From: a virus
IMG/VR virus record: IMGVR_UViG_3300030098_003959
Span: 1 to 26,881 of that record
Strand: one strand, 5' to 3'
Length of the DNA: 26,881 nucleotides
Within the stretch, counting starts at the first letter, position 1, and every line of letters starts with the position of its first letter. Of the stretch, positions 2,540-9,607 are shown one piece after another. The translations under genes were made by a program, and so were the position numbers. The notes below the pieces were generated by a model that was given only the letters and a program-made list of their open reading frames with translations, was not told where the DNA came from and searched no databases.

Positions 2540-2896
2540 TTATTTTTTATTAGTTATTAATTTAGTTTCTGTTCTATATGCAAGACGTTTATCTTTTTGC
2601 TGGTCTGCAACACCTTCATTGTTCCAAATTATGTTACGCCATAGTTTTAGCCATTTATAATAAGTTTTTGCGTTTATACTAAAATCTTCTGTATTGCGAA
2701 CTCCATTCCAAAAGCTCATTTCTACATCTCTCCATAATAATGAAGAAAATGATTTCTTTAAATCTGATGCTAAACTTTGAGCCATTAAAACTTTTGTTTT
2801 TGCATCTACATTATGCTGACCAAGATCAAGATATGTTTTTGAGAGTAATTCAACACACATTTTAGTTAATTCAGCTTCACTAATTTTTTTTATCAT
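2540..2896 (-). CDS. Unknown helical protein next to the replication gene
   Basis: This 118-residue, mostly helical protein contains a notable aromatic stretch around residues 62-94 (SFWNGVRNTEDF, then YYKWLKLWRNIIWNN). It overlaps the 3' end of the helix-turn-helix replication protein by 17 bases, so the two are coupled. By position it could be a helicase loader or other replisome accessory, since phage replication initiators are often followed by such genes. I see no Walker or loader motif, so this is inference from position only. Confidence 0.6.
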   Translation of the reverse strand: MIKKISEAELTKMCVELLSKTYLDLGQHNVDAKTKVLMAQSLASDLKKSFSSLLWRDVEMSFWNGVRNTEDFSINAKTYYKWLKLWRNIIWNNEGVADQQKDKRLAYRTETKLITNKK

Positions 2897-3533
2897 TATC
2901 TTGTATTTGTTTTAATATTTGCATTGCTTCATTATGAGTTTGCAAATGCTTATCTACTTTACTGATCCCAACACTATTTAATGCCCATTTAGATTCATTT
3001 TTAGCCCATGTTTTGATCCTCCTTGACGTTGACCAAGTTTTCATTGTATCTTTTTTTAAAATACCTTTTTTTGTTGGCTCAGACCAATATTCAAAAAAAT
3101 CAGTAAGCATTTCTTTTGAGTAATTATCAAAAGCCATAACCTCATTATAAAATTGATTTTTACTTTTATCTTTATTTAATTGATTATTTATTATATTATT
3201 ATTTAATTGTGTTTTGTTTTCCATATTTAGGTTTTCTAACTTTGGGGATTCAAAAACTACATAATTGATTCCTATGTAAACACCTTTATTATCTTTAACC
3301 CTTTCTCTTTCAACATATCCACATTTTATAAGCTCATTCATTGTTGATCTAATTGACACTTTTCCCTCTTTCAAAATAGCATATAAACCGCTAATTGATA
3401 ATTTCCATGAATCACTAAAGCTAAGTAACATAGCTAATAATCCCTTTGCCTTTAAAGACAACCTTCTATCCTTAAAAATACGATTACAAATTGTAGTGTA
3501 ATCTTTGCTTTTTATTACTCTAACTATGTCCAT
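2880..3533 (-). CDS. Helix-turn-helix phage replication protein
   Basis: This 217-residue protein has an N-terminal winged-helix region of the type found in many phage replication initiators (DnaD-like or RepA-like N-termini). YTTICNRIFKDRRLSLKAKG, then LLSFSDSWKLSISGL, ILKEGKVSIRSTMNEL and GYVERERV cover residues 12-79. An Asn/Lys-rich linker (about 105-125) separates it from a C-terminal helical block with FFEYWSEP and MKTWSTSRRIKTWAKNE, which I have seen in Bacteroidota phage replication proteins. It probably binds the phage origin and recruits the host replisome. It sits 21 bases after the ParB-like gene. The window carries no DNA polymerase or replicative helicase, so host enzymes would be needed. 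Confidence 0.75.
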   Translation of the reverse strand: MDIVRVIKSKDYTTICNRIFKDRRLSLKAKGLLAMLLSFSDSWKLSISGLYAILKEGKVSIRSTMNELIKCGYVERERVKDNKGVYIGINYVVFESPKLENLNMENKTQLNNNIINNQLNKDKSKNQFYNEVMAFDNYSKEMLTDFFEYWSEPTKKGILKKDTMKTWSTSRRIKTWAKNESKWALNSVGISKVDKHLQTHNEAMQILKQIQDNDKKN

Positions 3534-3554: not shown

Positions 3555-4076
3555 TCATTGCTCTACCTCCCAACTATCTGAAAATTCTTTATCCTTAAAT
3601 AATGATGCTAATCCAGTAATCTGTTTCATTCTTAATAATTCATCTTTACTCATACCAATATGTTTACATATCCAAGCATCCCCTTTCCCCATTTCAACTA
3701 ATTCAGATACTATTGTACTCATTAAATCAATATTATGAGAACCTCTTGCTCTATTATGTCTAATAGTAGAAGCCATTCTATCAGATATGTCTTTGTTTAA
3801 AACAGTAATTGGTAAATGATAATCCTCTCTCTCTCTTATTCTTTTACTATTTAACATTGTAGAATATCTATGAAAACCATCAACAACAATATATAAATCT
3901 TCATCTGAATCATAAACTGTAACAATAGGCATTGTATATCCATCCTCCCAAATAGATGTTTCTAATAACTCCATTTCTGGTGGTGCAACTGCATTTGGAT
4001 TGTAATCATTTGCTTTTACTTTATCCATATGCACTCTCAATACATTGTAAACTGGTGATTTAAATTTTTTGTTCAT
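3555..4076 (-). CDS. IbrB/YbdM-like ParB-domain protein
   Basis: This 173-residue protein is one ParB/Srx-type N-terminal domain followed by a helix-turn-helix-like region. Key segments are NDYNPNAVAPPEMELL (residues 23-38), EDGYTMPIV (44-52), IVVDGFHRYSTM (63-74), IRHNRARG (105-112) and the helical part at 115-160 ending in a KQITGLASLF segment. This matches IbrB of E. coli (paralogue YbdM) almost motif for motif, not chromosomal ParB. IbrB pairs with IbrA and was described as a regulator of immunoglobulin-binding protein genes; its biochemistry is not established. ParB-fold relatives bind or hydrolyse nucleotides, and DGFHR occupies the equivalent phosphate-binding position. It is shorter than YbdM, lacking part of the C-terminus. 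It follows the EctC-like gene by 23 bases. Confidence 0.85.
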   Translation of the reverse strand: MNKKFKSPVYNVLRVHMDKVKANDYNPNAVAPPEMELLETSIWEDGYTMPIVTVYDSDEDLYIVVDGFHRYSTMLNSKRIREREDYHLPITVLNKDISDRMASTIRHNRARGSHNIDLMSTIVSELVEMGKGDAWICKHIGMSKDELLRMKQITGLASLFKDKEFSDSWEVEQ

Positions 4077-4089
4077 TTTTTTTTTTTTT
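4077..4089 (-). other. A13 homopolymer leader of the ParB-like gene
   Basis: On the minus strand thirteen consecutive A bases lie immediately before the ATG at 4076-4074. A-rich leaders without Shine-Dalgarno sequence are typical for efficient translation in Bacteroidota. A run this long is also prone to length change by polymerase slippage during replication or transcription. Because it is untranslated, any length change would affect expression, not the protein. Confidence 0.5.
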
Positions 4090-4099
4090 ATTATTAATA

Positions 4100-4477
4100 T
4101 TATATTTTGTAAGAACCATCTTTTTGATGAATTTCATCACCTTTAACTGGAGGATTAAAAACTGAAATTAAAACAACATCTTCTAAGGCTTCAAAAGTAT
4201 GTTTATCGTTATTATCTAACAAATATATGTATCCCACATTTATATTAAAATTTTCTTTAGTTACCAAGTTTGTTAAAACACCCCTACCTTTAATACAGTA
4301 ACATGATTCTTTATGGTATTTGTAATGCCATAAACCCTTTTGGCCTTTAGGAATTATTGTTTTATGAAAAGAATATCCCATATTATCTCTTTCTAATATC
4401 ATTCTTACACTCCTTCCTTCTTTAAATTTTACATCTCTTTGTGTTCCTATTAAATCTTTTTCGTTTATAACTTTCAT
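4100..4477 (-). CDS. Ectoine synthase (EctC)-like cupin protein
   Basis: This 125-residue cupin aligns end to end with EctC, which closes N-gamma-acetyl-2,4-diaminobutyrate to the compatible solute ectoine by eliminating water. Matching segments are GTQRDV (11-16), NMGYSFHKT (32-40), HYKYHKESCYCIKGRG (51-66), YLLDNNDKH (85-93), SVFNPPVKG (105-113) and EIHQKDGSY (115-123). As I recall EctC numbering, the iron ligands are Glu57, Tyr85 and His93, and all three are present at those exact positions. Ser23, Arg25, Thr40, Tyr52, His55, Phe107, Glu115 and His117 are also kept. The conserved Trp21 is Gly here and Cys105 is Ser, so the substrate may differ. EctA and EctB are absent. The gene starts one base after the IbrA-like stop, so the two are coupled. 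Family membership is strong; ectoine production is unproven. Confidence 0.85.
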   Translation of the reverse strand: MKVINEKDLIGTQRDVKFKEGRSVRMILERDNMGYSFHKTIIPKGQKGLWHYKYHKESCYCIKGRGVLTNLVTKENFNINVGYIYLLDNNDKHTFEALEDVVLISVFNPPVKGDEIHQKDGSYKI

Positions 4478-4478
4478 T

Positions 4479-5774
4479 TTATAATTTTTTATATTTTAAC
4501 TGAATTTCTCTTTGTCTTTTGGCTTGTTCTTGTGTAGGCGCTAATCCTAAATATTTGCAAGTATGGTCATTCTTTAAAATAGTTATTACAAATCTTTTCC
4601 AACTAGTAACATCTGAATTATGACATCTTAGCATATCTAAATGATCTGGAGGAATCATTCTTACACAATCTTTGTCTTTATTTCCATGTCGAGTTTTTTC
4701 TCCTAATTTAAAATATATGTTATTGTTTTTTAAATCTTTTATAACTTCTTTTGGTAGCCCTCGCCCTATTCTCCACCAGTATTTTAAAGATTGAATAAAG
4801 CGATTCTTAAAATTTACACTTGATTGATTTGGAAGTGTTTTAAGTAAAAATTTAGTAAAACTTTTCCATGTATGATTTTTTGGTAAAGTAAAACTTCTAT
4901 ATGTTAATTGTTTTCCATATGTAGCAATAAAATTAGCACCAGAAACCCTTGCACATAATCTACTCCAAACATGACCATCAATTATTCTATATAAATTAAG
5001 GCTTGATTTGGATTCACTCATAAAAGGACTTGCTACTCGCATTTGAGCAACAGTTAGTCCAGCTTTCCAAAATATATCATAAAGTTCATTATATAACCAA
5101 TTAAATTTAGCATTAGCAACCCACACATCATCTGTTTTCCAGTCATATATTGGATAAACATTATATGTGTTTTTGGTGTTTTTTTTAGTCCAATAAAAAT
5201 TATTTATCATTTTTTTATTTTCATTCATAATTGCCCTATATCGATTTAAACTTTCATCAGTTCTAATTCCTATAAAATTTGCACACTTATTTCCATCTGC
5301 ATACCATTCACCAAAATTATCCCAAAATTCGTCATAATTCATATTTTCTTTAAAAAAACTAAATTTATGATTATTTATATTTATGATATAATCTTCTTTA
5401 GGCATTGGTCTAATCCATCTGTTTTTATCATTTACTCCCCAACATTGCCAATCAATTTCATAACTACTAACAGTACAAGGTAAGGTTATAGGTAAGCAAC
5501 ACCAATACACATCCAGAAAATTAATGTTCTCTTTTATAATTTTATGCATAAATTCTAAAGAATATTCATAATTAGCTTCATTATCTAAAATCATTAATCC
5601 TATTTTTTTCTTAATGTTATTGTTCTTCATATAATCCAGCACTAAATTTAACATCACTCCAGAATCTTTACCTCCACTAAAAGACATGTATATTTTAGTG
5701 AAATTATTAAAAATAAAATCAATTCTTTCATTAGCTGCTAGGTACACATTTTTCTTTTTATTATACTTTTTCAT
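4479..5774 (-). CDS. IbrA/YbdN-like PP-loop (PAPS reductase family, DUF3440) protein
   Basis: This 431-residue protein has an N-terminal adenine-nucleotide alpha-hydrolase/PAPS reductase domain. SFSGGKDSG with the PP-loop SGGKDS (residues 33-38), LDNEANY (about 63-69), FIGIRTDESLNRYRAI (the GIR...ES..R motif) and YPIYDWKTDDVW are all visible. The C-terminal half carries the DUF3440-type region seen in E. coli IbrA and YbdN, with AQMRVASPFMSE and HVWSRLCARVSGANF. PP-loop enzymes activate a substrate by adenylation with ATP or act on PAPS; IbrA has no established reaction. The protein is full length compared with YbdN (about 400 residues). The missing DndB, DndD and DndE neighbours and the DUF3440 part argue against a DndC phosphorothioation enzyme. 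It opens the three-gene cassette with the EctC-like and IbrB-like genes. Confidence 0.87.
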   Translation of the reverse strand: MKKYNKKKNVYLAANERIDFIFNNFTKIYMSFSGGKDSGVMLNLVLDYMKNNNIKKKIGLMILDNEANYEYSLEFMHKIIKENINFLDVYWCCLPITLPCTVSSYEIDWQCWGVNDKNRWIRPMPKEDYIININNHKFSFFKENMNYDEFWDNFGEWYADGNKCANFIGIRTDESLNRYRAIMNENKKMINNFYWTKKNTKNTYNVYPIYDWKTDDVWVANAKFNWLYNELYDIFWKAGLTVAQMRVASPFMSESKSSLNLYRIIDGHVWSRLCARVSGANFIATYGKQLTYRSFTLPKNHTWKSFTKFLLKTLPNQSSVNFKNRFIQSLKYWWRIGRGLPKEVIKDLKNNNIYFKLGEKTRHGNKDKDCVRMIPPDHLDMLRCHNSDVTSWKRFVITILKNDHTCKYLGLAPTQEQAKRQREIQLKYKKL

Positions 5775-5806: not shown

Positions 5807-6085
5807 TTAAGCCCAAATAATTTGTTGTTGTTCATAACATTTAGGATCTTCATATTCATATTTTGCTATTGTTGTTATATTTCCAAATCTATTTTCTGTT
5901 TTTATTAAATTTGTTTTAATATTGTAACCTTCATTTTTTAACTTATATATTATATCTGAAAGCCGAGTTGCTCCATATTCTTTTATTGCCTCCCAACTTG
6001 TTATATGTTTATAAGTTTTAAGATGAAACATTATAGCATCTCTTTGTGTTTTTACTTGTTCTTTTGTAATATTAATTGTTTTCAT
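5807..6085 (-). CDS. Winged helix-turn-helix protein (HTH_55-like)
   Basis: This 92-residue protein has a helix-turn-helix signature of the phage HTH_55 type: KHITSWEAIKEYGATRLSD (residues 26-44), then IIYKLKNEGYNIKTNLI and a beta hairpin ending in IAKYEYE. Proteins of this family are small phage DNA-binding proteins of unclear target, often next to replication genes. It overlaps the DnaA-like gene before it by 14 bases and lies 32 bases before the IbrA-like gene. It could regulate this unit or assist replication. Confidence 0.72.
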   Translation of the reverse strand: MKTINITKEQVKTQRDAIMFHLKTYKHITSWEAIKEYGATRLSDIIYKLKNEGYNIKTNLIKTENRFGNITTIAKYEYEDPKCYEQQQIIWA

Positions 6086-8380: not shown

Positions 8381-9607
8381 TTATATTACAATTTTAAAAA
8401 CTGTTTGTTTTTTTAATGTTTTATCAAGGCTTTTAGCATTATAAGAAGATAACTCTTTGTTTATTGCATAGCCTTTAAATCCTTTTGTGTGCTGCAAATC
8501 TATCCTTATATCATGTCTTTCCTTATCTTTCATTATATATATGTTTTGTGCAGCCCTAGAGCTTAATAATAAAGCGTTTTCACTATAAGCATTTGCTCCC
8601 ACCAAACTAGAACTTCTTGCAAATAAATCAGTTATTTTTGTTTCATGTAAATGACCACAAATCATAAAATCAAGAATGATTCCATTTCTTGCATATTTAC
8701 TCATTACTTTAGCTATTTTGTCTGATTGCATATTACCAAGCTGATGACCATGAATAAGCAAAACATTATGCCCATTAACCTCAACAACCAATTCTAAACC
8801 TCCAGATGTAATAAAATTAATGTTAGGCAATAAAAGACGTAGCATTTCAAAGATAGTAAAATCGTAGTTATCACTAGCAACAATATCCACCCAGCCTAAT
8901 TCATATGCTCTTGATTCATTTCCAGAAACACAACCAACACTAACATTAGCAATGCTATTTAAATCTAAAATAAAATGTTTTAAAAGGTGAACACCTAAAA
9001 AAGTAGCTTTTGCTCTATTTGTACTCATTGCTAACTTTTCATCTAGCCTTCTATCTGAATTAAGTAAATCTCCAGTTATTGCAATAAAAATTTCTGTAAC
9101 ATTATAAAAACTAGAATATTGTTTTATGTAATGTGCAAACTTTTGTAACCTTTGAGATGCAACTTCAAAATCATATTTATTATTTTTTAAATCAACTAAC
9201 TCATTAAAGTGTGGATCTGCTATTTGAACTATAATAACTTGTTTATCTTTAGATTCATGCTGTTTTATTGTTGTTTTAAGGCTTTCTGTTTTAAGTAAAT
9301 CAATTAAAGCCTTATTATATTCAACTAAAGCATTTTCAAGCCTTACATGCTCTCTAAATGATTTATTCTTTATTCTATTAAGGTCGGCTTGTTTTTGGCT
9401 TCTTTTAGCCAATTTAAGGTTTTCTTCAATAACTTCTTTATCAGCTATCTCATATTGTATTATATCTTTTATCCTATGCCTTAGAGTTGTTTTCTTTACG
9501 TTTAAATGGTATTTCTCTATAAGATGTTGAGCTATGCTTTGATAGCCATTACCATTCCAAAAATGCTCTAATATTTCATCTAAATACTCTAAATATTTTG
9601 ATTCCAT
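8381..9607 (-). CDS. Calcineurin-like metallophosphoesterase with N-terminal HTH
   Basis: This 408-residue protein has a helix-turn-helix-like N-terminus (GYQSIAQHLIEKYHL, 21-35), a charged coiled region to about residue 120 and then a metallophosphoesterase domain. Metal-site motifs are ADPHF (Asp131, His133), TGDLLN (Asp180), SGNES (Asn230), IHGHQ (His286, His288) and CGHLH (His319, His321). Family members hydrolyse phosphoesters, including DNA and RNA ends (SbcD/Mre11) and nucleotides. The usual Gly-Asn-His motif, whose His acts as general acid, is Gly-Asn-Glu here. The HTH suggests it acts on DNA. It follows the endolysin with no gap and is the last gene before the late terminator. Confidence 0.8.
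   Translation of the reverse strand: MESKYLEYLDEILEHFWNGNGYQSIAQHLIEKYHLNVKKTTLRHRIKDIIQYEIADKEVIEENLKLAKRSQKQADLNRIKNKSFREHVRLENALVEYNKALIDLLKTESLKTTIKQHESKDKQVIIVQIADPHFNELVDLKNNKYDFEVASQRLQKFAHYIKQYSSFYNVTEIFIAITGDLLNSDRRLDEKLAMSTNRAKATFLGVHLLKHFILDLNSIANVSVGCVSGNESRAYELGWVDIVASDNYDFTIFEMLRLLLPNINFITSGGLELVVEVNGHNVLLIHGHQLGNMQSDKIAKVMSKYARNGIILDFMICGHLHETKITDLFARSSSLVGANAYSENALLLSSRAAQNIYIMKDKERHDIRIDLQHTKGFKGYAINKELSSYNAKSLDKTLKKQTVFKIVI

Follow-up and report, generated by a model that had tools for sequence, protein, structure and literature searches.

The viral record IMGVR_UViG_3300030098_003959 of IMG/VR was analysed from position 1 to 26,881, and this whole stretch of 26,881 nucleotides is called the window here. 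Its minus strand carries a cassette of three genes encoding the PP-loop protein IbrA, a cupin resembling the ectoine synthase EctC, and the ParB-like protein IbrB. The original prediction, made from the nucleotide sequence alone, had described this cassette with gaps of 1 base (IbrA/cupin) and 23 bases (cupin/IbrB) between the open reading frames (ORFs), and both its coordinates and its family identities hold. Prophages have long been known to carry IbrA and IbrB next to each other, to our knowledge with no reaction assigned to the pair, and the literature treats the two as co-activators of prophage gene expression or mentions them in genome annotation. The pair is already known, and new chemistry is possible. 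The features of the cassette are the following:

4479-5774, minus strand: IbrA, a PP-loop ATPase resembling 3'-phosphoadenosine 5'-phosphosulfate (PAPS) reductases, with a C-terminal DUF3440 domain, 431 amino acids (Pfam, PHROGs, fold matches)
5661-5678, minus strand: PP-loop motif S33-G-G-K-D-S38 of IbrA (conservation in 90 aligned IbrA)
4100-4477, minus strand: EctC-like cupin, 125 amino acids (PF06339, PRK13290; ectoine synthases 5bxx and 5onm in the PDB)
4415-4417, minus strand: cupin position 21, Gly in the window and Trp in true ectoine synthases (Gly or Phe in 112 of 116 phage cupins)
4307-4309, minus strand: cupin metal ligand Glu-57 (Glu in 116 of 116 phage cupins; a metal ligand in EctC, PMC6344544)
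4223-4225, minus strand: cupin metal ligand Tyr-85 (Tyr in 116 of 116 phage cupins)
4199-4201, minus strand: cupin metal ligand His-93 (His in 115 of 116 phage cupins)
3555-4076, minus strand: IbrB, with a ParB/Srx-like N-terminal part and a helix-turn-helix (HTH)-like C-terminal part, 173 amino acids (phrog_2159)
3867-3881, minus strand: DGFHR motif of IbrB, residues 66-70 (invariant residues; aligns with DGVHR of SbnI)

The cupin matches the Pfam family Ectoine_synth (PF06339, E 8.7e-42, 142.8 bits with a cut-off of 27) and passes the NCBIfam ectoine synthase model PRK13290 (143.1 bits, cut-off 128). For comparison, 116 phage cupins and 44 bacterial EctC were aligned and numbered as in EctC from S. 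alaskensis. Residues S23, R25, T40, Y52, E57, G64, Y85, E115 and H117 are identical in all the phage cupins, and H55 and H93 (115 of 116 each) and F107 (113 of 116) are nearly so. EctC binds its metal through E57, Y84/85 and H92/93 and contacts its substrate through R25, T40 and Y52 (PMC6344544); the ligands E57, Y85 and H93 and these three contacts are all present in the window cupin. Position 21 is different. Trp-21 is invariant in 437 cluster-encoded EctC proteins and conserved in 145 orphans, and the W21A variant retains 9.7% of the activity (PMC6344544), whereas this column holds Gly in 61 phage cupins, Phe in 51, Met in 2 and Cys in 2, and never Trp. Even when positions 17 to 25 are considered together, a Trp is found in 43 of 44 bacterial EctC and in only one of the phage cupins. 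Judging from these alignments, the phage cupins form a subfamily of EctC in which the chemistry appears to be retained and one substrate contact, a residue important for ectoine formation, is altered. It is very probable that the cupin is an active cyclase.

The same combination of genes was found well beyond the window. A tblastn search of the 50,697 phage records of INPHARED with the window cupin gave five matches, of which four are real phage records belonging to two lineages, namely Gaia (two records), Nebkiss and XCL1123. The order IbrA, cupin, IbrB is kept in all four. Gaia and Nebkiss encode the last two as a single protein, which in Gaia carries the GenBank label 'ectoine synthase/ParB multidomain protein'. 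The remaining match, MT835761 (MT835761.1, 'Bacteriophage sp.', our locus L009), was discarded as a probable fragment of a bacterial ectoine operon, since an EctB-like aminotransferase gene adjoins EctC and IbrA and IbrB are not near.

In IMG/VR, the best 80 loci returned with IbrA as seed all contained an EctC match, one of them weak (29 bits). A separate scan with the cupin alone gave 78 loci; IbrA and IbrB were both present in 74, the other four being cut by the contig end, and the median distance from the cupin to the nearest of the two was 7 bases. As a control, 398 sampled Pseudomonadota genomes provided 43 bacterial EctC loci. These were inspected with flanks of 1.5 kb (30 loci) or about 4-5 kb (13 loci), and neither IbrA nor IbrB was near any of them; no convincing EctC was found in 395 Bacteroidota genomes. 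The original prediction had proposed counting EctC-like cupins beside IbrA and IbrB against chance, and had named the lack of any other genome with all three genes, together with a lack of interaction or shared phenotype, as the result that would contradict it. The count gives 74 of 78 viral loci versus none of 43 bacterial EctC loci, so the association of EctC with IbrA and IbrB is far beyond chance, and 111 distinct copies of the cassette were collected from phages of Mycobacterium and Pseudoalteromonas and from environmental viruses, so that its carriers include many bacterial viruses unrelated to each other. Among the best 80 genomic IbrB loci, EctC occurs in 3 and IbrA without EctC in 77, one of which carries the additional gene G4 described below; 76 have IbrA and IbrB only. 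The pair without EctC is the more widespread form. PAPS-reductase-like proteins resembling DndC have been noted in prophages of M. abscessus (PMC8092301), and no description of the cassette was found in the literature searched, which excludes most subscription journals.

The architecture of the cassette is variable. The order IbrA-EctC-IbrB-G4 is the commonest (74 of the 111 distinct cassettes), and gene order changes about 22 times across the IbrA tree. EctC and IbrB lie in one frame in 27 cassettes, which needs at least 4-6 changes on that tree. Genes that are kept together despite this reshuffling, and that become fused, are expected to act together, and the cassette is almost certainly one functional unit. 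The cupin had been proposed as a third component of the system, and this idea is strengthened by the conserved proximity, the 27 fusions with IbrB and the single clade of EctC-bearing IbrA proteins presented below.

A further gene, G4, of about 130-150 amino acids, came to light when the loci L001, L003 and L004 were compared with XCL1123 and Gaia, and it is present in 77 of the 80 IbrA-seeded loci. With G4 itself as seed, 75 further loci were recovered; every one carries IbrA and 59 lack EctC, which points to G4 as a general partner of this IbrA-IbrB branch and to EctC as a clade-specific addition. Neither Pfam nor PHROGs assigned G4 to a family. Its AlphaFold model is a confident all-helical fold with a predicted local distance difference test score (pLDDT) of 94.8; Foldseek found nothing significant in the PDB (best E 1.9) and, in BFVD, one homologue at 58% identity and otherwise nothing. 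Examples of G4 are L006:6909-7325 and L007:7254-7652, and the protein seems to be a general component of the branch that has so far gone unrecognised. In 41 loci G4 is followed by G5, of about 85 amino acids, which matches the C-terminal end of DUF3440 (L022:2779-3042 and L024:5789-6049). In another IbrA branch, a separate small ORF seems to encode the end of IbrA. A search of the whole window gave no match to G4, and inspection of the window ORFs gave no G5. Furthermore, small and similar GIY-YIG-like ORFs lie inside four cassettes, at two different places (L036:1391-1666, L113:4509-4844, L139:4666-4983 and L007:6890-7264).

Regarding IbrA, the window protein matches DUF3440 (PF11922, E 3.8e-55, 186.9 bits, cut-off 25), PF01507 (E 1.3e-11) and phrog_2302 (E 1.8e-105). 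In the 90 aligned IbrA proteins, S33, G35, K36, D37 and S38 of the PP-loop are invariant and G34 is conserved in at least 90%. The best PDB folds for its AlphaFold model (pLDDT 88) are PAPS and adenosine 5'-phosphosulfate (APS) reductases, CysD and flavin adenine dinucleotide (FAD) synthases. Weaker fold matches are NcsA, GMP synthetase and TilS; all these enzymes bind or form adenylates. The tRNA enzyme TtuA is also among the PP-loop relatives. IbrA stays far below the cut-offs of the CysH and DndC models: it scores 15.5 bits with the CysH model TIGR00434 (cut-off 165.1), 17.0 with TIGR02057 (cut-off 254.2) and 24.8 with the DndC model TIGR03183 (cut-off 290.4), and membership in the Dnd system was ruled out on this last score. 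A conserved cysteine cluster that could form an iron-sulfur site was not found, only Cys-93 and Cys-406 being kept across both IbrA clades.

IbrB, encoded on the same strand as IbrA and one gene apart, matches the ParB-like family phrog_2159 (E 1.3e-75). It gives no match to Pfam ParB_N, so its label as a ParB-domain protein comes from PHROGs and from distant matches to SbnI, SerK and Noc. D66, G67, H69 and R70 are invariant in 64 IbrB proteins, and the DGFHR motif that contains them is closer to SbnI (DGVHR) and to the free serine kinase SerK than to the GERR-type motif of ParB CTPases. A role in plasmid partition was rejected. IbrB is the most conserved component of the cassette. The window protein is 75-77% identical to the copies in Pseudoalteromonas and Mycobacterium phages.

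Distant relatives of the pair have other neighbours. In Arthrobacter phage Edmundo (L367:3971-6178) and Bacillus phage 031MP002 (L368:3242-6532), a distant IbrA-like protein is accompanied by a pair of ParB-like proteins and by a small, related methyltransferase. SF2/SNF2-type helicase genes adjoin IbrA or IbrB in Streptococcus, Flavobacterium and Pseudomonas phages (L371:2279-3514, L369:1699-2898 and L370:4709-6667, respectively), and the first two of these helicases are related, with 31% identity. As distant IbrA/IbrB homologues adjoin a methyltransferase or a helicase, these systems point to a modular chemistry.

Three divergent cassettes (L027, L099 and L103) carry an EctD-like gene, and two of them also a METHYLTRANSFERASE. 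The EctD-like gene was found in exactly 3 of the 50 cassette records searched, always between IbrA and EctC; these three loci were also all that a profile scan of IMG/VR for EctD-like proteins recovered, and a single-sequence scan found nothing beyond the contig of the query. The best PDB matches of the encoded dioxygenases are the ectoine hydroxylases 3emr (8e-90) and 4mhr (1.5e-76), the next family following at 3e-38, and 15-16 of the 17 EctD signature residues are kept. Six residues contact 5-hydroxyectoine in EctD (PMC6890836). Five of them (Q127, H144, T149, W150 and R280) are conserved in all three proteins, while Leu-284 is replaced by Met or Val. As the ectoine contacts are retained, the product of the cassette may still contain the ectoine ring and its carboxylate. 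L027 and L103 also encode a relative of sugar O-methyltransferases, for which the PDB search put MycE first (3e-27), followed by the demethylmacrocin O-methyltransferase 8ia9; in L103 it is the middle part of a fusion protein of 499 amino acids, flanked by EctC and IbrB. EctB was not found in 38 cassette phage records, while related aminotransferases were recovered in 14 of 14 control genomes; EctA was not searched for. If diaminobutyrate is used, it must therefore come from the host. The original prediction had missed these hydroxylase and methyltransferase variants, as well as G4, G5 and the wider occurrence of IbrA-IbrB without EctC.

A tree of 90 IbrA proteins, obtained by a quick search with uneven sampling, places all EctC-bearing forms on one side of a single branch with a Shimodaira-Hasegawa-like approximate likelihood ratio test (SH-aLRT) support of 100. 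The phage cupins are likewise split from bacterial EctC with a support of 100, in a short alignment. A single origin of the EctC-bearing form is the simplest reading of these trees, not proof of it. At least 95% fixation in EctC-bearing forms together with at most 10% occurrence in the others is seen at 31 positions of IbrA and at 3 of IbrB, and several of the 31 cluster after the PP-loop (N65, N68, S72, M76, T97, P99, T101, Q110 and C111). Such a contrast would be expected if EctC shares the substrate or the product of IbrA, and the depth of the tree alone could contribute to it.

Ectoine is made from diaminobutyrate, whose gamma-amine is acetylated by EctA before EctC performs the ring closure. 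The cassette could be the core of a phage pathway that forms an ectoine-type ring from a substrate different from free acetyl-diaminobutyrate, a proposal that we hold to have an even chance of being right. IbrA would take the place of EctA, using ATP to activate another molecule at a carbonyl or carboxyl group and joining this group to a diamino acid, and the cupin would then close the ring with loss of water. Where they are present, the EctD-like enzyme would hydroxylate the product and the MycE-like enzyme would methylate it. IbrB, with a nucleotide-binding and an HTH-like part, may act with G4 and G5 to bring this chemistry to its target or to regulate it. The proximity of the genes, their repeated fusion, the EctC-bearing IbrA clade, the intact EctC site, the PP-loop fold and the EctD-like and O-methyltransferase relatives are established by sequence comparison, and from them we infer all the reaction steps and the target. 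The original prediction had ordered the steps similarly, with adenylation by the PP-loop enzyme and ring closure by the cupin, and this part fits the EctC site, the IbrA fold and the hydroxylase and methyltransferase genes; its DNA or RNA target and the targeting by IbrB are putative.

The most likely target would be phage DNA, but it could also be RNA, protein or a small molecule. DNA is favoured because ParB-fold proteins pair with PP-loop or base-exchange enzymes in two known systems: in DndC-DndB the partner is a DNA-modifying PP-loop enzyme (PMC10853773), and in DpdA-DpdB it is a DNA-modifying enzyme of the TGT type (PMC12839542). A nucleic acid as target has a little less than an even chance. 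A more specific version, still tentative, is that the cassette represents a new class of phage nucleic-acid hypermodification, in which the ATP-dependent PP-loop enzyme attaches a diamino acid to a base, the cupin forms the ectoine ring, EctD- and MycE-type enzymes tailor it in some phages and the ParB-HTH-like protein directs the process. Viruses appear to use ectoine chemistry for a purpose other than salt stress, and possibly to mark their own DNA.

Several observations weigh against the proposed pathway. The three dioxygenases score 188.2 (L027), 284.7 (L099) and 173.0 bits (L103) with TIGR02408, all below its cut-off of 336.5, and for this reason they are called EctD-like and not proven EctD. 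These genes and the methyltransferase genes are rare among the cassettes (three and two, respectively). Among the recurrent neighbours, which were clustered and not all annotated, none was recognised as a gene for nucleobase synthesis. EctC is an add-on, since IbrA-IbrB works widely without it. Finally, the annotation of IbrA and IbrB as co-activators of prophage gene expression would fit regulation better than modification.

The strongest of the other explanations is that the product is a small molecule, such as an ectoine derivative or an ectoine-like conjugate, serving as a protectant, signal or inhibitor in the infected cell, with IbrB only regulating genes. The cellular substrates of EctC and EctD are free small molecules, the contact residues for free hydroxyectoine are retained in the EctD-like proteins of the phages (PMC6890836), MycE and TylE are natural-product methyltransferases, and the HTH-like part of IbrB would suit a regulator. 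Nevertheless, diaminobutyrate would have to be host-derived given the lack of EctB, Trp-21, which is important for EctC activity (PMC6344544), is lost, and IbrB, as the most conserved component and a repeated fusion partner of EctC, seems to do more than regulate. This explanation is considered unlikely. Modification of RNA, for example tRNA, or of a host or phage protein is somewhat less probable again. The tRNA enzymes NcsA, TtuA and TilS are among the fold relatives of IbrA and, as EctC also cyclises glutamine (PMC6344544), a protein glutamine could be a substrate; but the nearest folds are those of PAPS/APS reductases, CysD and FAD synthases, and the ParB/HTH-like architecture of IbrB is of a DNA-associated kind.

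The co-activator annotation would also fit a purely regulatory device, with IbrA and IbrB governing transcription in the phage or the host and the cupin serving, as cupins can, as a non-catalytic ligand sensor. This is improbable when all 116 cupins share the full catalytic and metal site, the PP-loop is conserved, and some cassettes have gained genes for a hydroxylase and a methyltransferase. Least probable of all, with hardly any weight, is an auxiliary metabolic set made of an ectoine synthase for host salt tolerance and cysH for sulfate assimilation. Virome papers take viral ectoine synthase as salt adaptation (PMC13079714) and cysH as a core auxiliary gene. However, the cassette is present in soil phages of M. 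smegmatis, its cupin can be fused to a ParB-like protein, and an osmolyte or sulfur gene set was ruled out by the missing EctB, the lost Trp-21 and the scores of IbrA, far below the cysH cut-offs. For the defence or counter-defence role also raised in the original prediction, PADLOC gave no strong defence-model match on the window, only weak DndC-like matches and one chance-level match.

The genes on both sides of the cassette are also on the minus strand and probably lie outside it:

5807-6085, minus strand: winged-helix gene (HTH_39; PF14090, 6.4e-12), with related neighbours at only 6 loci
2880-3533, minus strand: replication-initiator-like gene (phrog_4707 and phrog_186), at the place expected for G4

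Further away, a metallophosphoesterase-like ORF was identified by eye at 8381-9607, and a relative lies near the cassette in L003 (374-1609); this is probably ordinary phage synteny. As for the host, the terminase of the window phage has 44% identity to phages of gut Firmicutes, and the window has 29% guanine plus cytosine and A-rich leaders without Shine-Dalgarno sites, which would fit a Bacteroidota host.

The presence of the cupin makes the question of what IbrA and IbrB do directly testable, since the chemistry of this partner is known (ring closure, loss of water, an iron-type cupin site) and hydroxylase- and methyltransferase-bearing sisters exist. In addition, some carriers of the cassette can be cultured in the laboratory, with M. 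smegmatis mc2 155 as the host of Gaia and Nebkiss and P. marina as that of XCL1123. Should the cassette turn out to act on DNA, it would add a new type to the known phage DNA modifications. Viral 'ectoine synthase' and 'cysH' calls are also unsafe evidence for viral salt-stress or sulfur metabolism.

Compared with known systems, the cassette shares with YbdN-YbdM of E. coli and the prophage IbrA-IbrB pairs both protein families, encoded by adjacent genes, with DUF3440 and a ParB-like protein. The known pairs have no EctC, and the EctC-bearing IbrA proteins, set apart by 31 residues, form a clade of their own. With ectABC(D) it shares the EctC fold, metal ligands and catalytic residues and, in some cassettes, a relative of EctD; it differs from this operon in the lack of EctB in the 38 records, the loss of Trp-21, the EctC-IbrB fusion and an EctD-like protein below the model cut-off. 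Bacterial orphan EctC proteins are also encoded outside an ect cluster, but the published ones keep the Trp, sometimes shifted by two residues (PMC6344544), whereas 115 of the 116 phage cupins are without it, and eight sampled loci scoring like orphan EctC (L272-L279) have no IbrA or IbrB neighbour.

The Dnd system likewise places a PAPS-reductase-like PP-loop enzyme, DndC, beside a protein of the ParB superfamily, DndB (PMC10853773). The DndC-like set of cluster ligands was not recognised in IbrA, because only Cys-93 and Cys-406 are conserved, and DndA, DndD and DndE were not recognised among the recurrent neighbours of the cassette, for which no dedicated search was made. In the Dpd system, a ParB-like ATPase, DpdB, serves DNA base modification (PMC12839542). 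Its partner DpdA is a transglycosylase of the TGT type, whereas the partners of the ParB-like protein in the phage cassette are a PP-loop enzyme and an ectoine-type cyclase.

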